NCBI RefSeq assembly: GCF_004022485.1 | Contig: NZ_CP034951.1 | Location: 1,302,001 to 1,366,000 of the forward strand | Length of the DNA: 64,000 bases | Direction of reading: 5' to 3' | Origin: Aequorivita sp. H23M31 | GTDB taxonomy: Bacteria > Bacteroidota > Bacteroidia > Flavobacteriales > Flavobacteriaceae | Shown here: piece after piece, positions 16,214 through 27,768 of the stretch | How the letters are laid out: each line of letters begins with the position of its first letter | Position numbering within the stretch: the first letter of the stretch is position 1 | Translations under genes and position numbers: made by a program | Notes under the pieces: generated by a model | Seen by the model: only the letters and a program-made list of their open reading frames with translations | Told to the model about the DNA's origin: nothing | Databases searched by the model: none

Positions 16214-16301
16214 AGCCGTAAGATAAACCTATAATTACTCCTCAATAGTTTGATTAACCTCAGCTCTAACTTTACGAAAGAAAGGGCAGTGAACAAGAAG
16301 C

Positions 16302-16327
16302 AAAGCCGAAGTTAAATCTTCGGCTTT
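16302..16327. terminator. bidirectional terminator between convergent genes
   Basis: AAAGCCGAAG pairs perfectly with CTTCGGCTTT around a 6-base loop, with T-rich sequence following on the + strand. It lies between the + strand PorE-like gene and the - strand phosphoesterase gene. Confidence 0.85.
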
Positions 16328-16357
16328 ATTGTTTTTAACGGATTAAGTCAGAATATC

Positions 16358-19300
16358 CTAGAAATCAAATCCCAATCCAAAAGTTATACGGGGACCTTCG
16401 GTAGAGCTGAACCAATTGAAGTTGGCATTAAGGCCTCCAGATCCATTAAACCATACTCCTCCCCCATAGGAATTGTGCCATTTGTCGCTGCTTTCGTTTT
16501 TAAGCCATACTCTTCCCAAATCTACTCCTCCATAAATTCCCATTTGAAGCGGGTAAAGACCAATCTTAATATTGGGTAAGGTATAGCGCAAATCTGCATT
16601 TCCTACCAAAAATGATTTCCCTGTAAACCTCTGGTTCCGGTATCCTCTTAATCCCGTATTACCTCCAAGTTGCGACGCTTGAAAAAACTGGTACTTGTTT
16701 CCTAGAATGACTTCATACTGAATATTAGTTTTAAGCACAAGCTTTTTACTTTTTACAAGAGAGTTATAAAATCCCACACGTGATTTAATAAAACCAAAAA
16801 CATCTTCCGTTTTTTCAAAATTGTCCGTAACCCCCAAATTTAAGTCAAACATCATTCCGATTGTAGGGTTTAGAATATTATCATAACTTCTATAATTATA
16901 GATGCCCTCAATTGTACCGTAAATGGTTGTTTCTCCTTTATCAAAAACATCCACCTGACTAATAAAATCTAATGGAGAATCCTTTACTTCGTATGTATCA
17001 AATTTTGCTCTCAGTTTGAAAAAACTTCCAAAATTACTATTGCGGAGCAAGGCTACGTTTCCGGAAATATTCTGAACTGCTACTCGATTGTAATCGTAGC
17101 CTTTTTCATCTTGTTTGTTTAAAGTTTCATTTCCGTAACCAAAAAAGTTCATTTTATTGTTGGGGCTGGTATATCGACCTCCGAAACTTAGGTTCAAATC
17201 GTTTTTTATGTTTGCAAATTCCCCTTCATAGGAAATATCGAAGCTCTGCGTATCGGTGAAGTAAGCAAAATCCACAGCATGTTTTTGTGAAAAAGGATTC
17301 CGCTGAAAATTATCCACTCTGTATTCATAATGAAGGGCTGCCCGAAAACCATCATCAGGATTATAACCGATAGCAGAAACCAAACCCTGGCTCCTATCCA
17401 ATTGTTTTCGGTAATCGTAGGTGTTTAGATTATAGACATTTGTAAAACGGAAATTACCGCCATTTTTTTCTATAATTGTGTCACTCCTTTTTTCGTAATC
17501 ATAAATTTTTACGCGACTACCATTTTCCAGTTTATAGACATCATTACCCAGACCTCCTATTAAGCGCACAAAGATGGGATTCTCGGGTTTTCCTTTCACT
17601 ACAAATTTGTCGCTACCACCCAACCCATAAACCCAGAGTTCTTTGGTATCCTTGTGCAAAAAGGTGCGGTCGATAAGCGTGTCGGATTTTTTTCCATTTA
17701 TGGTGGTAAAACTTCGCACATTCGTTTTTCCTTCCGGCAATCGGGTAATCTCGAATAAGTCTTCGTAATCCGTACCTACTATGGTTTGTTGAACAGCAAA
17801 ATAAGTATAATACCTATCGGCAATATCTTCTAAGTTTGCTCTGCGTTCCTTTAATTTCTGTTTAATATCCTCCAAGGCTTCATCCTGAACTTCGATTGGC
17901 ACATTGCTAAAAGCCTTATCGATCACCTCATCTGTTAAACTGTCCTGAATCATTTTAGCCAAAAACTTCCACTGTCTTCTGCCAGAATTTCTGATAAGTG
18001 CCCTATCCAGAATAATACCTTCTTTGTTGAACCATTGAAGATCTTTTAAGTCCTTCCCATATACGTGATACTGCTTGGTTCCACTGAAAAGGGATTGGGT
18101 AATATCGAGAATATTGCCCTCAAAACTAGAAAAAGCATTGTCCCTATTTGTAGGAATGGGAACGAAGACATTTTTTTTATATCGATTATAATATTTAGCC
18201 CAGTGCCAATGCTCGGTTTCACGATCCCAATCCCCAATCAACATATCGAAAAGACGGGATTTAATATAATTTTCCTCATCGACATAAACATCTCCGGTTT
18301 TGCGCATTTTGATCAGAATATCATCCGTTGTCTCTACGTCATCTGGATATTCAAATAGTTCCTCGTCTTTACTCTTTTCCGAAGGAGCCACGGAAATATA
18401 GTAAAGCCCATTTCCAAAATTCTCATTATAAATTCCTAGATTTTTCTGTTTTGGAACATAAAATAATTGCGGTGAAGTTGAGAAGATGCCGATAGCTTTA
18501 GCTAAGTCTGGTATAGCCATCTGCGCGTACGGATGGGTAGCTGTATAAAAGTTTATATCCTGGCCTCGCAGCGTTGCAGTTTCAACTTCGCCTTTTTTCG
18601 ATGGCTTTGGATTATCTTCAGAATCAATCTTACGCGAAATGCTGAGTGCATTTTTTGCCATGGCCCGCATTCTATATTTGTTTCCTTTTTTGTCCGTTAA
18701 CAAGAGAGCATTATAATCCTTTCCATTCGCCACACGGGACACCTTTAATCCGCCATACAATGTATCCAACAGGGCAACTTTTGCAGTTACAGGTTGAGAA
18801 TAAGCATCTTTATATTTGGCTCCCCATATCGTTTTAAAAAACAATGCTTCTCTAATACTGTCCTGCCGATAAATGGGAACGGTATATTCCAGGGGATAAT
18901 TTTCAGGATACTCCGTAGTCTCATTCTTTTTGGGTTGTGGAATTACCTCTTTTTGAAAAATAAGTTCGGGCTGCATATTTTTTCCCGCAACAAAATAACG
19001 AACCCACGAAGAACCATCCTTAAAAACATCAAGTACGGCAAAGCCCTGCTCGCCTGTACTAAAATACCCATCGTCTCCCGTGGCAGCATACGATTCTTTC
19101 GATCCGGCACCAGAAACGATCTGATGGAATCCATCCTTTTCAATATACTGCAGATTATGATCGTGGCCAGAAACAAATACCAGTCTTTTGTTCTTCCTTG
19201 CCATTTCCTGCAAACGGTTCATAAAATCGTTATAAAGCTCATTATACCTATCCTGCACAGATACGCCACCTTGCGATCTAATCTGAACCACGAGAGAGGC

Positions 19301-20068
19301 TAAAACGGGCATTGGTATCTTCTTTTGAAAAGGATACAAATGCTTTTCAAAAGCAAAATAACCACCGTGGTTCCCGTTGCTGTACATAGGATGGTGCATA
19401 GCAAAAACCACAGTTTTATTTTGATTTTTTTCTAATTCCAGTTTTAATGTCAACAGAAATTTTTCACGGGTTTTGATGTCGCAATTTTCATTGATGGTTG
19501 GATGCTTGTTCCAATCCTCGAGCATCCATTGGGTATCTACAATAATCAATTGGATATTTTCTGAAATATCGATACTTTCCATACCGCAACCATTGCTAGG
19601 TTTAAAAACATCCGGACTTGAAAAAACTTTTTTAATGTAATTTTCTTCACGGGCTACTCCAGCTACTCCGCCGTTATACCATTCGTGATTGCCAGGAATA
19701 AAAATGGTATGGCCCTTATAATTCTTTACTGCCTTATATTGGGCGTTTATCATATTTTCAGATTGTCCCCTACGTGGACTATCCTCTGGATCCATTCCTG
19801 CGGGATATATATTATCACCTAGGAAAATAGTATAATTGTCGGCTACCTCCTCTTTTTTAAGATAATTTTGAAAAGTCGCCAGGGAATTGCTCATACCGCC
19901 CATGGGCGAAAGCCCGGCATCTCCCACCAAATAAAATGTTTTCTCAACTTCTTTGTGGGAAGGATATGTTGGGTTTTCCCAGTTTTCCTTAAACTGCGGC
20001 GAAAAAGTTGCACAGGAGGAAATAAGAAAAAGCGTGAAAAGAAATAAATAAAATTTTTTAAGAATCAT
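16358..20068 (-). CDS. lipoprotein: metallophosphoesterase fused to Omp85-like barrel (intact catalytic motifs)
   Basis: Start taken at the ATG at 20068 (MILKKFYL), which opens a lipoprotein signal with lipobox LISSC; an upstream in-frame ATG at 20089 adds seven residues. Numbered from that longer start: the calcineurin-like phosphoesterase domain (50-340) keeps D57 (VGDAG), GDN 91-93, GNHE 133-136, HH 232-233 and GHDH 308-311, all metal or catalytic ligands. The middle domain (about 410-900) contains IGDWDRE (619-624) and PIPTNRD (644-650). The last ~330 residues are beta-rich with GLRGYRNQRF, like the Omp85 motif, and end in phenylalanine as outer-membrane barrels do. It lies 156 bp downstream of a tandem paralogue. 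Activity as a surface or periplasmic phosphoesterase is likely; the substrate is unknown. Confidence 0.85.
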   Translation of the reverse strand: MILKKFYLFLFTLFLISSCATFSPQFKENWENPTYPSHKEVEKTFYLVGDAGLSPMGGMSNSLATFQNYLKKEEVADNYTIFLGDNIYPAGMDPEDSPRRGQSENMINAQYKAVKNYKGHTIFIPGNHEWYNGGVAGVAREENYIKKVFSSPDVFKPSNGCGMESIDISENIQLIIVDTQWMLEDWNKHPTINENCDIKTREKFLLTLKLELEKNQNKTVVFAMHHPMYSNGNHGGYFAFEKHLYPFQKKIPMPVLASLVVQIRSQGGVSVQDRYNELYNDFMNRLQEMARKNKRLVFVSGHDHNLQYIEKDGFHQIVSGAGSKESYAATGDDGYFSTGEQGFAVLDVFKDGSSWVRYFVAGKNMQPELIFQKEVIPQPKKNETTEYPENYPLEYTVPIYRQDSIREALFFKTIWGAKYKDAYSQPVTAKVALLDTLYGGLKVSRVANGKDYNALLLTDKKGNKYRMRAMAKNALSISRKIDSEDNPKPSKKGEVETATLRGQDINFYTATHPYAQMAIPDLAKAIGIFSTSPQLFYVPKQKNLGIYNENFGNGLYYISVAPSEKSKDEELFEYPDDVETTDDILIKMRKTGDVYVDEENYIKSRLFDMLIGDWDRETEHWHWAKYYNRYKKNVFVPIPTNRDNAFSSFEGNILDITQSLFSGTKQYHVYGKDLKDLQWFNKEGIILDRALIRNSGRRQWKFLAKMIQDSLTDEVIDKAFSNVPIEVQDEALEDIKQKLKERRANLEDIADRYYTYFAVQQTIVGTDYEDLFEITRLPEGKTNVRSFTTINGKKSDTLIDRTFLHKDTKELWVYGLGGSDKFVVKGKPENPIFVRLIGGLGNDVYKLENGSRVKIYDYEKRSDTIIEKNGGNFRFTNVYNLNTYDYRKQLDRSQGLVSAIGYNPDDGFRAALHYEYRVDNFQRNPFSQKHAVDFAYFTDTQSFDISYEGEFANIKNDLNLSFGGRYTSPNNKMNFFGYGNETLNKQDEKGYDYNRVAVQNISGNVALLRNSNFGSFFKLRAKFDTYEVKDSPLDFISQVDVFDKGETTIYGTIEGIYNYRSYDNILNPTIGMMFDLNLGVTDNFEKTEDVFGFIKSRVGFYNSLVKSKKLVLKTNIQYEVILGNKYQFFQASQLGGNTGLRGYRNQRFTGKSFLVGNADLRYTLPNIKIGLYPLQMGIYGGVDLGRVWLKNESSDKWHNSYGGGVWFNGSGGLNANFNWFSSTEGPRITFGLGFDF

Positions 20069-20224
20069 TGTTCTGTTTTCTGCAACCAAACCAAAGAACC
20101 CTTTAAATTATATCCTCTGGTATTTGGTAGTCCCGGTTCCTAAAAATATGGAAAAGAAATTGATAGTCCTTCTAGCCGTCCCTGATATTAAGAAGAATTT
20201 CAACAATTTAAAAAGATTTTTCTA

Positions 20225-23200
20225 TCACATGGAGACTTTCAATCCCAGTGTAAATCTTATCCCTTCCTCCCCAGCAAAAAGATTTAAGGTAGCACTTAAA
20301 AGGTCGGCAGTGTTTATCCACAAGCCACCGCCATAGGAACTGTGCCAAACATTGGAAGTATCGTTTGGAACCCATACCCTTCCTATGTCATATCCTCCAA
20401 AAACTCCAATTTGTATTGGGGTCAGCGCTGTGCGGAATTGATTAAAGCTATACCGAATATCGGCACTTCCCACCGCTGCTGTTTGTCCACTAAATCGTTC
20501 CTTTCTATAGGCGCGCAAACCGCTGTCGCTACCCAGTTTGGCAGCTTGGAAAAACTCATAATTATCCCCAATATTAAACTGCGCACGCATATCTGTTTTT
20601 AAGACAACTTTTCTATCCCTTGTAATTGCCCCATAAAAGACCAACTGCGGGTTTACATATCCGTACACTCGATCACTATCCTGAATGTTTTGGGTACCAC
20701 CCACTTCCAAGTTGAAATTCATCCCACGCGTAGGGTTCACTTTGTTATCATAGCTTTCATATTGATAACTCCCTTCTACAGTACCATAATAATGGGTTTT
20801 GTCCAGTTCAATGGGCGAGGGCGAATAATCTGTAATAAATCTGTCCGGTGTACTTTCTATTTTAACTCCATAGAATTTTGTTCTGAATTGAAAAATACTT
20901 CCATAAGGCGAATCTTTTTTAATTCCCACGGAAACTCCATAACCGCCAATACGGACGCGGTTATAATCCTTACCGGCATCAAATTCATAATCTGGATTAA
21001 TCGTCTCATTGCCAAAACCAAAGAAGTTTTCCGAGAAGTTGGGATTTTGGAAATAACCGCCGGCAAGAAAATTCCATTTGCCAAAAACATTGGCGAATTC
21101 ACCTTCGTAATTAATATCAAAACTTTCGGTTCCAAAATAATAGCCGGCTGCAAACCTGTGTTGTTGTGAAAAGGGATTCCGTTGAAAACCATGCACAGTA
21201 AATACATCTGTAAGACCTATCTTAACACCATCGTCGGGATTATAGCCAGCCGCAGGAAGCAACAAATTCACGGTCTGTATTTGCTTTTTATAATCGTAAG
21301 TGTTAAAATCGTAATTATCAGTTAGCCGAAAAGCAGCCCCTCCTCGATTTTCGATTGTGTTTTTTCTGCTTTTTTGATCATATACTTTAATCTTTCTGCC
21401 GTTGGCAATTTTGTAAACATCGTTATTCTGACCGCCAATAATTTTTATGGATATTGGATTGCTCCCGTTTCCCTTCACTTCAAAAACGTCGTCATCATCT
21501 AACCCATAGATCCAAATTTCGTTAGTTTCATCCGCACTATATGTTCTATCCAGCATCAAATCTGCTTTTGCTCCTTTCTTAATTCGGTAAGTCTTAATAT
21601 TTGTTTTTCCATCGGGGAGACGGGTAATCTCAAAATAATCGTCCTTATTGGTACCGACAACCGTTTGTAGCTTCGCTAGATAATCATAATATTCCTGGGC
21701 GATTCTTACAATATTATCCCTTCGTCCTTTCAGTTTCTCCTTAATTTCGGAAGCTGTTTCGTCCTGAACCTCTTTGGGAAGATCTTCGAAGGCTTTATCT
21801 ATAACTTGATCTGTAACATTATTATTAAGAAATTCCGCTTGCGCCAGCCATTCATCTTTACCATAACTTTGGATTAAGGCACGATCCAGTTTTATACCAG
21901 CCGCGTTAAACCATTTGGTATGCTTTAGTTCTGCACCATATACCTGAAACTGTCTAGAGGTATTGAAAAGTGTTCGGACTACATCTAGCAAACCTCCATC
22001 AAAATTGGAATATACTTGGTCGCGGTCGCGAGGTATGGGCTCAAAAGTAACGGAGCCGTCTTTGTTGTCGTGTTGAGTAAACCGCCATTGGTCGTTATGC
22101 CTATCCCAATCCCCAATCAACATATCAAAAATCCTAGCTCGGATATAAGCTTTTTCATTTAATGCATATTTCTCATCCCTTTGCAATTTTTCCAGCAGAT
22201 CATCGGTGCTCTCAACATTATCAGGATAATCGAATAGGGGGCCGTCAAATTTTTTGTCAGGCCGTTCTACAATCATATAAAGTTCGTCGCCATAACTTTT
22301 ATTGAATTTACCCAATGCCTTTTGCTTGGGCACATAGAAAAGTTTAGGATTAGTGTGCAAAACCTCAGCAGCATCGGAAAGTTTAGGAATAGTAAATGCC
22401 CCATAAGGATGCGCCGCTGTATAGAAATCTAGGATCAGATCTTCCGGAATGGTATTTTTAAATTCATTTTCAACAATTTTATCCTTGATTATCACATTTT
22501 GAAGAAACTGAACTGCACTTTTTTTCATTCCCCGCATATTGTAGGTCCTTCCATCCTTATCCTCGAGTCGCAATGAACGCGTTTGATGGCCTCCTCCCGC
22601 TCTTACAACTTTTAAACCACCATATAACGTATCCAAAAGGACTGTTTTAGCGGTTACCTCTGTTCCATAAACATTTCGGTAGTGCTCTCCCCAAATAGTC
22701 TTGTAAAATCCAGTTTTTTCAACTAAACTATCTTCATAGATCTTCGCTTTTACGGTTTTCGGAAAATTATTGTGAAGCGTATTAAAGTCATAATCCTTAC
22801 TCGGCGAAAAAATTTCGTGCTGATACAGTAATTGGGAATTGCCATCTTTTTCTGACTTAAAAAATCGAACTTCGGTAGCACTATTTTTATCGATATCCAA
22901 TCTGGCAAATCCTTCCCCACCATAGGAAAACTTTCCATATTGCCCTAGAGTGGCAGCAGTTGAACCAGAGCCCGATCCCGAAACAATCTGTTTTACATTT
23001 CCATTCTCTATATATTGAAGAGATTGATCCAGACCTGAAACAAAAACCAATCGCTCCAAGTCTTTGGTCAATACCCGAACTCTATCTATCAATTCGTTAT
23101 AGCGCTCGTTATAACGGTCCTGTTTGGAAATGGCACCCAGACTCTTAATTGGTTTAATAAGCGTACTAAAAACATCCTTATGGATTAAGGGATATTTCCC

Positions 23201-23902
23201 ACCGTGTTGCCCATAAGTGAGCAATGGATGGTACATTGTAAATATGATGGTTTTGTTGGCGTTCTTTTTTAATTCACTTTCAATTTCGGTGAAAAATTTA
23301 TCCCGGGTTTTAATCTCGCATTTTCTATTCATTTCAGGATAATTATCCCAATCTTCCAAAAACCATTGGGTATCCACTAAAAGTAAATAGATATCTTCTG
23401 AAACATCAATTCCTTCCAACGGACAACCATTGTTTGGTTGAAGAACTCCTTCGCCATCAAATTTATCTTTTAAAAAATCCTCTTCCAATTCCAAACCATC
23501 TACCCCGCCCTGCCATTCCATATTTCCTGGAACAACTAAGATCTTTCCTTTAAAATCCTTTAATGCAGAAAGCTGGGATTGCATAGAGTTAGTGGCCTTT
23601 TTAGTAAGCTCATCCTTTTTAGGCTGCATTCCTTTTGGATAAAAACTATTACCTAGAAAAACCACATAACTATCTTCGGAATTGTTCTCTGCCAAATAAT
23701 TGCTCAGAGATTGCATAGAATTAGAAGCCTTATCAGAACCGTTTCCAGCATTTCCAATGAAGTAGAAGGTTTTAGCAATATCCTTAGAAATCGATTTACC
23801 CTCTGTTTGGCTTGGAGAATTTTTGTATTTCGGATTATAGGATGCGCAGGCTAAAAGTGACACCGAGGCCACAAAAGTTATAAAGATGTTAATTCTATTC
23901 AT
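20225..23902 (-). CDS. lipoprotein: pseudo-metallophosphoesterase fused to Omp85-like barrel
   Basis: 1225 residues, same layout as the downstream paralogue: lipobox LLAC19, phosphoesterase-like domain (45-310), middle domain (about 400-900), Omp85-like barrel with GLRAYRKERF. The ligand motifs have decayed: GNAG (N51 in place of Asp), GNS 84-86 (Asp to Asn), GNME 126-129 (His to Met), YH 224-225 (first His lost) and GLDQ 290-293 (both His lost). The fold should persist but hydrolysis is very unlikely. In contrast, its middle domain has IGDWDRHNDQW (597-606) and PIPRDRD (622-628), a fuller version of motifs degraded in the partner. First gene of the tandem pair; its start is 53 bp from a divergent HD-domain gene. 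Expression as an operon with the partner is likely. Confidence 0.85.
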   Translation of the reverse strand: MNRINIFITFVASVSLLACASYNPKYKNSPSQTEGKSISKDIAKTFYFIGNAGNGSDKASNSMQSLSNYLAENNSEDSYVVFLGNSFYPKGMQPKKDELTKKATNSMQSQLSALKDFKGKILVVPGNMEWQGGVDGLELEEDFLKDKFDGEGVLQPNNGCPLEGIDVSEDIYLLLVDTQWFLEDWDNYPEMNRKCEIKTRDKFFTEIESELKKNANKTIIFTMYHPLLTYGQHGGKYPLIHKDVFSTLIKPIKSLGAISKQDRYNERYNELIDRVRVLTKDLERLVFVSGLDQSLQYIENGNVKQIVSGSGSGSTAATLGQYGKFSYGGEGFARLDIDKNSATEVRFFKSEKDGNSQLLYQHEIFSPSKDYDFNTLHNNFPKTVKAKIYEDSLVEKTGFYKTIWGEHYRNVYGTEVTAKTVLLDTLYGGLKVVRAGGGHQTRSLRLEDKDGRTYNMRGMKKSAVQFLQNVIIKDKIVENEFKNTIPEDLILDFYTAAHPYGAFTIPKLSDAAEVLHTNPKLFYVPKQKALGKFNKSYGDELYMIVERPDKKFDGPLFDYPDNVESTDDLLEKLQRDEKYALNEKAYIRARIFDMLIGDWDRHNDQWRFTQHDNKDGSVTFEPIPRDRDQVYSNFDGGLLDVVRTLFNTSRQFQVYGAELKHTKWFNAAGIKLDRALIQSYGKDEWLAQAEFLNNNVTDQVIDKAFEDLPKEVQDETASEIKEKLKGRRDNIVRIAQEYYDYLAKLQTVVGTNKDDYFEITRLPDGKTNIKTYRIKKGAKADLMLDRTYSADETNEIWIYGLDDDDVFEVKGNGSNPISIKIIGGQNNDVYKIANGRKIKVYDQKSRKNTIENRGGAAFRLTDNYDFNTYDYKKQIQTVNLLLPAAGYNPDDGVKIGLTDVFTVHGFQRNPFSQQHRFAAGYYFGTESFDINYEGEFANVFGKWNFLAGGYFQNPNFSENFFGFGNETINPDYEFDAGKDYNRVRIGGYGVSVGIKKDSPYGSIFQFRTKFYGVKIESTPDRFITDYSPSPIELDKTHYYGTVEGSYQYESYDNKVNPTRGMNFNLEVGGTQNIQDSDRVYGYVNPQLVFYGAITRDRKVVLKTDMRAQFNIGDNYEFFQAAKLGSDSGLRAYRKERFSGQTAAVGSADIRYSFNQFRTALTPIQIGVFGGYDIGRVWVPNDTSNVWHSSYGGGLWINTADLLSATLNLFAGEEGIRFTLGLKVSM

Positions 23903-23955: not shown

Positions 23956-25140
23956 ATGGAAAACCTAGTTCAAGAAACTGATGATTACATCTTAAAACTC
24001 TTTTCAGAAAAGCTTCCGGGCAATTTTGTTTACCACAATTATACCCACTCCAAGCGTGTTTATAAAAGTATAAATGAAATCATTGAACATTCACAAATTG
24101 GTGTTAAAGATGCACTTATCCTACGTTTAGCAGCTTTGTTGCACGACACGGGATACATAGTTTCCTGCGAAAACCATGAAGCTGAGAGCGCGAAAATAGC
24201 ACGCGAATTTTTGGAATCCAAGAACGTAGAAAAAGATGTTATCGAGGGTGTAGAAAAATGTATTCTAGCCACGGAATTTAAACACACTGATCCTGAAAAC
24301 GAGCTTGAGAAGATAATACGCGATGCAGATTCGTCACATTTTGGAAAAGATTATTTTGAAGAAGCCAGCGAATTTTTGAGATTGGAATTAACATTACAAG
24401 ATCGTCATAAATATACTGCTGAAGAATGGCGAGAAGAAAACATTAAAATGTTAACGGAGAAGCACCAGTATTATACCGCTTACGCCCTTAAGAACTGGCA
24501 GCCCGTGAAGGAGGAAAACTTGGCCGAATTGTTATCCAAACGTAAAAAAACAAAAGAAAAACATCACCGCGATGATGAAAAAGCACGGTTAAAGGCCAAA
24601 TATAAAAACGATAGTCCCGAACGGGGAATCCAGACTTTTTATCGGGTGGCTCTTAGAAACCACATTAAACTTAGCGATATAGCCGATACAAAAGCAAACA
24701 TCATGCTTTCTGTAAATGCCATAATAATTTCTTTGGTACTATCTAATCTTATATCCAAACTAGATAATAACAACTATTTGATTATTCCAACCGCTATTTT
24801 TATTTTGTTCAGCGCAACTACTATGATATTGGCAGTAATCGCGACACGTCCCAACATTACCCGGGGAGAGTTCACTAAAGAAGACGTTGCCAATAAAGCT
24901 GTAAACCTTACGTTCTTCGGAAACTTTCATAAAATGGAATTGTCAGAGTTTGAATGGGCCGTGGAGGAATTATTAAAAGATAGAGGTTATGTATATAAAT
25001 CGTTGACAAAAGATTTATATTTCCTGGGTCAAGTATTGGATAGAAAGTACCGAATTTTACGTATTACCTACACGATTTTTGTGGCAGGAACGATTATTTC
25101 GCTTATTGCATTTGCTGCATTCTTCTATATGGAAATGTAA
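23956..25140 (+). CDS. HD-domain phosphohydrolase fused to Pycsar-effector-like (PycTM/DUF5706) membrane domain
   Basis: 394 residues. The N-terminal HD domain (about 10-200) shows YHNYTH (H31), LLHDTG (H63-D64), H74 and RDAD (D123/D125), the metal-binding set of HD phosphohydrolases. A basic, charged linker (about 185-215, rich in K/R/E) follows. Residues about 225-394 match the PycTM/DUF5706 family: 'LSDIADTKANIMLSVNAIIISL' region, two adjacent membrane helices (about 245-263 and 271-293), a conserved cytosolic stretch, and a final helix (about 373-392). PycTM domains are membrane effectors of the pyrimidine cyclase (Pycsar) anti-phage system, but no cyclase is next to this gene. An HD-PycTM fusion could hydrolyse a cyclic nucleotide or other nucleotide. 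Housekeeping signalling is an equally open possibility. Confidence 0.8.
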   Translation: MENLVQETDDYILKLFSEKLPGNFVYHNYTHSKRVYKSINEIIEHSQIGVKDALILRLAALLHDTGYIVSCENHEAESAKIAREFLESKNVEKDVIEGVEKCILATEFKHTDPENELEKIIRDADSSHFGKDYFEEASEFLRLELTLQDRHKYTAEEWREENIKMLTEKHQYYTAYALKNWQPVKEENLAELLSKRKKTKEKHHRDDEKARLKAKYKNDSPERGIQTFYRVALRNHIKLSDIADTKANIMLSVNAIIISLVLSNLISKLDNNNYLIIPTAIFILFSATTMILAVIATRPNITRGEFTKEDVANKAVNLTFFGNFHKMELSEFEWAVEELLKDRGYVYKSLTKDLYFLGQVLDRKYRILRITYTIFVAGTIISLIAFAAFFYMEM

Positions 25141-25398: not shown

Positions 25399-27768
25399 CT
25401 AATCGTGAATTTCCGAAATTAAATCTTCATAGGTATAATATTCCTTTTTCTGCTTATTGTTCTTGGAATATAGAAAACTAACCCTAATAGCTTTCAATCC
25501 GGTAACACCCTGCAAATCTTCCAGTTCTACTGTTTCCACATCATCATCCAATAATTGTTGTGCTTGTAGAAAGCGAATATAGGTCTTGTATTCTTCCTCA
25601 TCTTCAGCTTGTGAATATACAATTGCTAATTTTCCAGGTTTTGTAATGCGCTCATCGGTGTTTTTTATGTGGGCTTTATCCACACGTTTTTTCACAACTT
25701 CGTATCTGGCATTATAGGTACCATCTACGTCAAAGCGTTTTTCGTCCATTCTAAAGCGCAAGGATAACGAGCCATTAAAAGCCAGGATCATGGAAGCCAC
25801 TTCAAGAGGAACGGGCAGTTGGTCTTTAAAACGGGAATAGGTATTTTCCATTTCACAGATTACCTGCAGCTGCCACAACTTTAAATTTTTCAGATAGATA
25901 GTATCAAATACTTTTTCTTTAGTGATAGAGGCGCCAATATAGAGGTTGTGCTCCACGCCATCGGTTTTGAATCTTTCAAAGTAATGCGGAAACATCATTT
26001 GGGCGTGTTGTTGTTTTTTATCCAAAACACCCGCAAGCACCTTGTTAACCTGCATTACAGATTCGTCATAATCCTTTCGGTGTTTATAGACCAGACCCGT
26101 ATTTGGATCAATAAGTCCGTTGTATTCTTCAACAAGTTTTTTGTATTCCTCATTGGTACGGCTAAGGTGATTAAAAAACGGAATTATTTCAGAATTAAGA
26201 AAATTTATTATTCTTCGTTCCGTATCAACTTGGAGGTTCTCAACAATTTCCTCCATAAAACCCGAGATCATAAAATTCATCTGTTCAAAAATAGGCAGCG
26301 CCTCAGAATTGTTCAATTTCTGGATTACGTTGGCCGCATATTTCAATTGTTCAATCAAATCTTGTTTAGTTGCCTCATTTCGTGCCTCAGAAGATCCTTT
26401 AATATCAACCTGTCCATAAAGGGGATGCACATCCTGAAACACGATTTCCCTAAAAATGGCAGGATTGCCTTCTGATATAGATTCTAAATATCTACGCGCC
26501 TCCTTTCTAAACTTCCAATGAACGCTATTATGAATAGAGGTACATTCTTCTTGAACAATAAGTTCCAGTTCATTCTCTAAGTTGGTCTTCGCACTTACTA
26601 CAGATCCCACCAAAAACGGCATAATATCCAGAAGTCTGTTTGCATTTATTGTATTAAGTTCATTTTTCTTCGACGAAACAAGTTCCAAAACTCCAAGGAT
26701 TCTATCATCCGAAACAATGGCAGCAAAAACGGCACTTTTTTTACCTTGATCCAGAAGCTTTTTATAGAGAATATTATTCGGATACAGCTTATGGTAACGT
26801 TCGGCATCAGTAACAACGTAGAACTCCCTTTGTTTAAAAAGAGTGTAATACGAAGAATTGCACAAAGCCTCTTTACTGATAACAGATTTATTACCTCCTA
26901 AAAGAAAACTATTGATTTCACTGAACAAAACCCGTTCAAAAGATTCCGTTTCCTCATTGTAATCCGCAAATCCAATCTGAAGATCGGGCAGATTGAAAAT
27001 AGATCTAAAAATTCTCGTGAAGTCGGTATTTTTAAAATCCTTATTGATCTCCAGATTCAATAAATCGGTTTTAAAATCTGAAATAGAGGTATCCACGGTA
27101 ATATCGATAAGTGTAGCAACTAAGAAACCGTTAAATGTATAGCCTTGGGGAGGAAATTTTTCCTTCCAAACCGCGATTTCGTCAAAACTTTCTAGAAGCT
27201 CGTTGAAATCCTCTTCTTTGAGCTCGGGAGCATCAGGACTCTTTTCTACTTCTACAAATTGGGTGTTATAAAGCACCCTAAAATTGCGCACCAGATCATT
27301 GTTCATCGGAATATTGCAGTGAAAGTCCCGTTGAAAGCCTAAATCCTTTCCATAGTAATGTGAGGCAATGAGACTACAACCCAAGATGTAATATAGATCG
27401 TGGTCCAAATTGATAAGATCTGGATAGAAATTTTTTCCGGCATTTTGGGCAAGTTCCTTATAACCTGCCGAGCTCTTAATAATTATATCCCGAAAGGGAA
27501 CAGTAGCGAACTTAATTTCATTGTCGTCAAAAACGGTAGGAAATAAAGGTTGCATCAGGGCATCAACCTGGTCTGAATATTCGTGTAGCTTTTCAGCATT
27601 GGATACCCCTTTGGAAAGCGCTGGATATTTGTCCGAAAGGGAAAGCATATCCTTTGTCCACTTATTGGAAGGATCCAAATTAAGTTGCTTGCGATAAGCC
27701 TCGAAAACTTTTCCAAAGCCTATTTTTATTTTCATCGGGAAATCCCGTGTGTCCAATTTTTTATCCAT
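25399..27768 (-). CDS. GAF-domain protein of unknown function
   Basis: 789 residues, no signal peptide. An alternative start is M12 (MKIKIGFGKV). A GAF-like region lies around residues 290-400: '..REFYVVTDAERY..', '..SAVFAAIVSDDRILGVLELVSSKK', followed by a long helical segment '..NRLLDIMPFLVGSVVSAKTNLENELELIVQEECTSIH..'. Another conserved-looking block is VHPLYGQVDIKGSSEARN (about 450-470). I recognise this as a conserved cytosolic protein type in Flavobacteriaceae, but its role is not known. It stands alone, convergent with the HD-PycTM gene (258 bp between the stops) and divergent from the TlpA-like gene. Confidence 0.7.
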   Translation of the reverse strand: MDKKLDTRDFPMKIKIGFGKVFEAYRKQLNLDPSNKWTKDMLSLSDKYPALSKGVSNAEKLHEYSDQVDALMQPLFPTVFDDNEIKFATVPFRDIIIKSSAGYKELAQNAGKNFYPDLINLDHDLYYILGCSLIASHYYGKDLGFQRDFHCNIPMNNDLVRNFRVLYNTQFVEVEKSPDAPELKEEDFNELLESFDEIAVWKEKFPPQGYTFNGFLVATLIDITVDTSISDFKTDLLNLEINKDFKNTDFTRIFRSIFNLPDLQIGFADYNEETESFERVLFSEINSFLLGGNKSVISKEALCNSSYYTLFKQREFYVVTDAERYHKLYPNNILYKKLLDQGKKSAVFAAIVSDDRILGVLELVSSKKNELNTINANRLLDIMPFLVGSVVSAKTNLENELELIVQEECTSIHNSVHWKFRKEARRYLESISEGNPAIFREIVFQDVHPLYGQVDIKGSSEARNEATKQDLIEQLKYAANVIQKLNNSEALPIFEQMNFMISGFMEEIVENLQVDTERRIINFLNSEIIPFFNHLSRTNEEYKKLVEEYNGLIDPNTGLVYKHRKDYDESVMQVNKVLAGVLDKKQQHAQMMFPHYFERFKTDGVEHNLYIGASITKEKVFDTIYLKNLKLWQLQVICEMENTYSRFKDQLPVPLEVASMILAFNGSLSLRFRMDEKRFDVDGTYNARYEVVKKRVDKAHIKNTDERITKPGKLAIVYSQAEDEEEYKTYIRFLQAQQLLDDDVETVELEDLQGVTGLKAIRVSFLYSKNNKQKKEYYTYEDLISEIHD

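Follow-up and report, generated by a model that had tools for sequence, protein, structure and literature searches.

In the genome of Aequorivita sp. H23M31 (a single contig of 3.68 Mb), two adjacent minus-strand genes, here termed U (upstream) and D (downstream), encode paralogues that are 43% identical over their full length and degenerate at opposite sites. They lie in the window analyzed here, a stretch of 64,000 nucleotides (positions 1302001-1366000). D retains all the metal ligands of its phosphatase domain and is degenerate in its kinase-like middle domain, and U presents the reverse pattern. We consider it likely, with a probability of about 0.68, that U and D are complementary single-function enzymes derived from one two-site ancestor and acting in reversible phosphorylation at the outer membrane. 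The computed parts of this proposal are the architecture, the predicted folds, the reciprocal loss of residues with its shift in evolutionary rate, a co-occurrence rule and a second occurrence in the Sphingobacteriaceae.

Domain architecture of U and D

A sequence-only reading of the window had recognized the adjacent paralogues and their common domain order (lipobox, N-terminal phosphoesterase-type domain, middle domain and Omp85-type C terminus), and our analysis bears this out. The features are as follows (all on the minus strand).

20225..23902: U, upstream gene, 1225-aa predicted lipoprotein with a ligand-less phosphatase domain, an intact kinase-like domain and an Omp85 barrel
22838..23770: U purple-acid-phosphatase-like domain, residues ~45-355; ligands lost (GNAG, GNSFY, GNME, YHP, GLDQ)
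21668..22780: U middle domain, residues ~375-745, predicted atypical kinase fold (AlphaFold2 model, VIA-align, Foldseek)
22580..22600: U glycine-rich loop AGGGHQT, residues 435-441, putative role
22085..22114: U putative catalytic loop GDWDRHNDQW, residues 597-606, with D600, H602 and Q605 (alignment)
22016..22039: U putative metal-binding motif PIPRDRDQ, residues 622-629, with D626 and D628 (alignment)
20228..21295: U Omp85 beta-barrel, residues ~870-1225, 16 long strands in the model
16358..20068: D, downstream gene, with an intact phosphatase domain, a degenerate kinase-like domain and an Omp85-type barrel
18974..19957: D phosphatase domain, residues ~45-372; GDAG, GDNIY, GNHE, HHP and GHDH all retained
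17795..18907: D middle domain, residues ~395-765; kinase motifs lost (VANGKDY, GDWDRETEHW, PIPTNRDN)
16361..17422: D Omp85-type beta-barrel region, residues ~890-1243; NCBIfam NF047779 at 63 bits (cut-off 200), related by homology to the barrel modelled for U
16640-16654: GLRGY motif in the D barrel (sequence)

The start of D was taken as the ATG at 20068, the listed start being a TTG at 20089. A lipobox with a Cys after the signal peptide is present in both proteins (LLAC in U and LISSC in D), which predicts that both are lipoproteins. The closest relatives of U among the named GTDB contigs are from Aequorivita, with a top identity of 79%.

The metal-ligand motifs of purple acid phosphatase-like PF00149 proteins are GDxG, GDxxY, GNH[DE], xHH and GHxH. 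D, which scores 39.4 bits against PF00149, carries all of them, and U lacks the set and appears to retain the phosphatase fold alone, as judged from its model. The ligand losses in U listed by the sequence-only reading (GNAG, GNS, GNME, YH and GLDQ) and the retention of the ligands in D were both confirmed. When ligand-intact phosphatase domains of the family were scanned with PF00149 (the first 48 of 64 non-redundant domains drawn from 136), 48/48 matched, and a family profile of these domains retrieved tartrate-resistant acid phosphatase (TRAP/PAP) chains from the PDB with an E value of 3.1e-11.

For the middle domain of U, a confident AlphaFold2 model spanning the whole domain predicts an atypical kinase fold, and VIA-align ranks a lipid kinase and a protein kinase equally as its best structural match. 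An hhalign profile alignment of the middle domain with CotH matched the wDxD motif and the putative catalytic Asp. The residues D600, Q605 and D626/D628 and the GGGHQT loop show little or no variation in the family, and their putative roles come from that one profile alignment, in which Q605 is unaligned; in D the H, the Q, the first Asp and the GGG are altered. U also matches the PADLOC family PDC-M03A (E 1.5e-4, residues 583-734), and D has no match to it. The barrel assignment comes from the U model, which has a predicted C-terminal 16-strand barrel of the Omp85 type. No POTRA domain was matched in general domain scans of U and D, in which the kinase-barrel stretch was not searched alone.

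Membership in two known kinase families was rejected. Neither U nor D matched CotH (PF08757) in Pfam at E<=1, and for HipA (PF07804) the best score, among ten stand-alone homologues of the middle domain, was 13.9 bits against a cut-off of 30.5. The CotH Pfam model reached 16.1 bits (cut-off 23.8) with one of these ten homologues. In hhalign comparisons with HipA, the stand-alone homologues gave E 9.2e-5 and the fused middle domains were weakly positive (E 0.0054). The weak HipA match, like the stronger support for the Omp85 and phosphatase folds, does not bear on activity. One stand-alone kinase-like homologue (L011/L218) is found in the same genome, at 850478-851524, where it has one in-frame stop; genes of this type are uninterrupted in five relatives.

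Reciprocal site loss across homologues

We scored 223 homologues for the seven phosphatase ligands (P) and for the His of DRH, the Q/N position and both Asp residues of RDRD (K); the labels denote residues, not activity. Five fragments without a readable phosphatase domain were set aside (L075_14332 with masked bases, L113, L054 with two frames, L163_1 at a contig end and the truncated L170), of which L075_14332, L163_1 and L170 have altered kinase motifs. The proteins comprised 101 P+K+, 85 P-K+, 35 P+K- and two without a phosphatase domain but K+, and none was P-K-; because the loci were chosen by similarity to U or D, these counts are not prevalences. The K score accepts Q or N, and Q-only scoring would call three Salinimicrobium copies altered (82 Q and 3 N among the 85 P-K+ copies); extra copies in this genus (L263, L264 and L265) carry Asn for Gln in DRHxDQ. 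Nine positions of the phosphatase site and nine of the kinase site do not vary among the 101 P+K+ proteins, apart from the last Q of RDRDQ (98/101).

In a tree built on the middle plus barrel regions of these proteins, whose tips are not independent, U and D fell into separate clades (n=28 and n=34, respectively), both with support 1.0. Every phosphatase ligand is retained in 34/34 proteins of the D clade. Conversely, at least three of the seven ligand residues are absent in all 28 proteins of the U clade, all 28 have GN instead of GD in the second motif, and all 28 are encoded by a single uninterrupted frame. Hence the ligand loss is conserved among relatives, as the sequence-only reading required, and the gene is unbroken in them; recent decay of U is rejected by the uninterrupted frames and by a dN/dS of ~0.06 in the ligand-less domain. 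Outside the clade, L054 has two overlapping frames, the N-terminal piece being closer to D and the long piece closer to U, as if tandem copies had recombined.

The loss extends beyond the ligands. Near-invariant columns were defined on 98 two-site proteins (46 phosphatase, 48 middle-domain and 34 barrel columns). Most U proteins are altered at 9/46 phosphatase and 1/48 middle columns, and most D proteins at 0/46 phosphatase and 13/48 middle columns, including the GGG loop, the H, the Q and the first Asp. Barrel columns are altered at 0/34 in U and 2/34 in D. When ten Aequorivita proteins were compared with eight from other genera, mean identity was 0.545 in the phosphatase and 0.716 in the middle domain for U, and 0.625 and 0.562, respectively, for D. 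The ratio of phosphatase to middle divergence was larger in U than in D in 44/45 pairs among the ten Aequorivita.

The dN/dS values were 0.059 (phosphatase, 6 pairs) and 0.038 (middle, 6 pairs) for U and 0.024 (6 pairs) and 0.040 (7 pairs) for D, with pairs limited to a dS of 0.05-1.5, which left 3-7 of the 15 possible Aequorivita pairs per domain; in the Altibacter-type set 9 or 10 of 10 pairs per domain qualified. Each degenerate domain thus evolves faster than the neighbour domain of the same protein, yet it is constrained, as a scaffold would be; the gap between D and U in the middle domain is small in Aequorivita (0.040 versus 0.038).

Co-occurrence of the copies

The protein is present in 182/249 and 286/397 sampled genomes of the family to which the window belongs, its own genome included. 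Copies were tallied in 40 genomes, namely 20/21 and 19/21 from two sets in which all first-look candidates were scored, plus G230, tallied with just two candidates scored per genome. The tally leaves out G190 (which harbors L054), the genomes G408 and G409, which belong to other families, any stand-alone middle domains, one truncated piece from G416 and a contig-end piece in G398 below the length limit. A P+K- copy was found in 21 of the 40 genomes, and it was accompanied by a P-K+ partner in 21/21 of them and by a P+K+ copy in 0/21. Another 18 of the 40 have a P+K+ copy with one or more P-K+ copies. The sole tallied genome without a full phosphatase-intact copy is G202 (68% complete), with a fragment and a P-K+ copy. 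Among genomes with a single match (28, of which 26 with sequence), the copy was P+K+ in 26/26.

A separate sample of 120 database proteins contained 81 P-K+, 34 P+K+, 1 truncated and 4 P+ proteins altered only by DRD for DRH. Among the best 120 of 1929 database matches, those that bear a name are annotated as phosphoesterase, metallophosphoesterase, phosphohydrolase, BamA/TamA family protein or hypothetical.

Several genera (L043, L044, L069, L071, L074 and others) have a third tandem copy, T, after D, with the kinase motif intact and phosphatase ligands lost by changes other than those of U. In the tandem pairs L050 (G230) and L164 (G337) one copy lacks phosphatase ligands and the other has both sites.

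On the tree, phosphatase ligands were lost about eight times, one such group (n=15) being placed with a support of only 0.294, and the kinase motif was lost once in the D clade and again in the Sphingobacteriaceae. So many separate phosphatase losses, some of them among the tandem copies within a single genome (L050, L164), would be expected if redundant duplicates were drifting, the loss of a single site being neutral and a double loss giving a pseudogene. We regard such drift as quite unlikely: strong constraint still acts on the degenerate domains (dN/dS 0.040-0.059), a distinct motif is common to the D-type copies (E in 32/34, H in 31/34 and N in 30/34), and none of the 21 tallied genomes with a D-type copy retains a two-site copy.

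A second split in the Sphingobacteriaceae

In most of the Sphingobacteriaceae loci sampled, genes for an HD-PycTM protein, an SdiA-regulated lipoprotein, a phosphatase, a GAF-like protein and a kinase-Omp85 protein are clustered. The phosphatase gene is a full fusion with an altered kinase motif in L267, L300 and L301 (DQQ or DQR), a full fusion with DRR in L303, and a full fusion with an intact kinase motif in L299, L302 and L304. At nine loci (L305-L313) the gene encodes the phosphatase alone (359-383 aa), with the ligand letters retained in 9/9; in a tenth, L314, the frame is 493 aa long. The kinase-Omp85 genes beside the phosphatase-only genes carry DRHxDN and DRDK in 9/9 (L305-L313), and those beside fusions DRHxxQ and DRD[QK]. 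The location on separate chains in nine loci argues that the two activities can work in trans.

These loci bear on the view of the sequence-only reading, in which D is the enzyme, U a purely non-catalytic regulatory subunit and the middle domain a structural linker. The ligands of U are indeed lost in 28/28 orthologues, with the domain under purifying selection and its predicted fold retained. However, a kinase fold is modelled with confidence for the middle domain, near-invariant middle columns are altered at 1/48 in U versus 13/48 in D, and the nine loci have a phosphatase lacking the middle domain in cis beside a gene that retains it. U keeps the complete set of putative atypical-kinase motifs, and it is D that is degenerate in the middle domain; a plain catalytic/non-catalytic pair is therefore rejected because of the kinase-like domain of U, and we consider this view very improbable.

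Evidence against the proposed split of functions

Several observations weigh against complementary enzymes. Q605 falls in a gap of the hhalign alignment, two residues off the conserved Asn of CotH, and its role as a metal ligand is putative. Foldseek TM-scores for the middle domain are low (TMq 0.14-0.34), a PDB sequence search with the middle-domain profile gave no credible match, and kinase-fold proteins can do other chemistry. The D clade retains the DRH Asp in 34/34, the conserved Lys in 33/34 and the last RDRD Asp in 31/34, so that residual kinase activity of D is possible, and one D-type copy (L155) retains RDRD. The DRH His is not absolute, because 4/38 phosphatase-intact database proteins have DRD with the other tested positions intact. 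The P- copies have lost two to six of the seven ligands, and the 6/85 that lost just two are less surely dead. In the Sphingobacteriaceae, L315 (G442) is a 1856-aa fusion with a degenerate phosphatase and intact kinase motifs beside a kinase-Omp85 gene. Finally, ATP is thought to be scarce outside the cytoplasm. Pfam searches of 62 middle domains gave only chance-level matches, including Fam20C at E 0.16, and PI3K/PI4K-class structures were absent among the 50 matches listed for the full-length U model, a list filled by phosphatase and barrel matches.

The middle domain might then have a kinase fold but no phosphotransferase activity, acting as a nucleotide or lipid sensor or in other chemistry; AMP or glutamyl transfer is done by some kinase-fold proteins. 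Three points speak for this explanation: most copies (82 of the 85 P-K+) have Gln at the position of the usual kinase Asn, a lipid kinase and a protein kinase tie as best fold match, and the phosphate donor outside the cytoplasm is unclear. We nevertheless find it rather unlikely, since none of the 101 two-site proteins deviates at the Lys, DRH, Q and RDRD positions, Q is replaced by N in some lineages as expected for a metal ligand, and the partner domain is from a phosphate-removing family.

Locus context and conserved neighbours

U and D are separated by 156 nt, and no terminator-like site was found between them on the minus strand. The terminator scan as a whole found 6 sites against a shuffle mean of 7.1, so that hairpin evidence at U-D is weak. 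The flanking features are:

16301..16328, minus strand: terminator-like hairpin 3' of D (terminator scan)
23956..25140, plus strand: divergent gene for an HD phosphohydrolase with a PycTM membrane domain (Pfam PF01966, PF18967)
25399..27768, minus strand: gene for a 789-aa GAF-like protein, named for a weak, sub-threshold GAF match in its Mucilaginibacter homologue

Among Flavobacteriaceae loci flanked by at least 4 kb of sequence, an HD-PycTM gene lies within 2.5 kb of 73/81 phosphatase-intact loci and a GAF-like gene within 6 kb of 74/81, as compared with 2/13 and 2/13 of the loci with only P- copies; those two are probably L070 and L075, where the D copy is cut or masked. Therefore, both genes track the phosphatase-intact locus. 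Neighbours of the HD-PycTM and 789-aa types recur in Sphingobacteriaceae loci. PycTM domains occur in Pycsar defence effectors; the setting here looks like housekeeping, and the combination of HD and PycTM suggests, from what is known of these families, nucleotide signalling at the inner membrane.

Proposed model and comparison with known systems

The ancestor would have been an outer-membrane lipoprotein on an Omp85 barrel, with an N-terminal site like that of purple acid phosphatases followed by an atypical kinase site (PI4KII/CotH/HipA class) in the middle domain; after its duplication the two copies would have lost opposite sites. U would then be a phosphate writer with a scaffold-only phosphatase domain and D a phosphate eraser with a scaffold-only kinase domain, the two doing in trans what single-copy relatives would do in one chain. 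We infer that U phosphorylates and D dephosphorylates one common substrate and that the two proteins are in physical contact; the shared target, to which U would add and from which D would remove phosphate, would most likely be located in the outer membrane or periplasm, and the degenerate domains may be retained for folding, contact or substrate binding. More tentatively, and at slightly less than even odds, the Bacteroidota may have a dedicated system of reversible outer-membrane phosphorylation, in which an ancestral kinase/phosphatase-Omp85 lipoprotein beside HD-PycTM and GAF-like genes was split into writer and eraser in at least two lineages, in one leaving full-length paralogues whose dead domains are complementary and in another leaving separate genes.

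A predicted kinase fold is hereby assigned to the large unannotated domain of a protein common in the family of the window. If both sites do share one substrate, these bacteria would attach phosphate and take it off again at their outer membrane. The apparent division of roles between U and D points to an undescribed mechanism for the two reactions at the bacterial surface. The pair would be a clear-cut natural example of reciprocal subfunctionalisation, its degenerate domains being retained as scaffolds, and the natural split offers each putative activity as a separately deletable gene. No published description of a U/D-type protein was found in the open-licence literature, nor in the available portions of PMC12611786, PMC12045153, PMC10281475, PMC10202324 and PMC9758233.

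Among known systems, the CotH spore-coat kinases (PF08757) and the PI4KII lipid kinases resemble the middle domain of U in predicted fold. The CotH kinases differ in their hosts and substrates, no protein of the window matches CotH in Pfam, and the accessible part of a CotH study mentions no fusion to a phosphatase or a barrel (PMC7821199). For the phosphatase domain, the purple acid phosphatase/TRAP family is a close known system. Unlike BamA and TamA/TamL of the Omp85 superfamily, which also includes the patatin-type PlpD, U and D have enzymatic modules in front of the barrel and no POTRA match in general scans. The domain folds of PFK-2/FBPase-2 are unrelated to those of U and D, and this enzyme is cytosolic and has a known metabolite substrate, whereas U and D are predicted outer-membrane lipoproteins on Omp85 barrels. 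The likeness lies in opposed kinase and phosphatase domains in one chain, and yeast PFK26 and FBP26, isoforms of the bifunctional enzyme that each lack one activity and keep both domains, according to the portion of the source available, provide a precedent for the split (PMC9721465).
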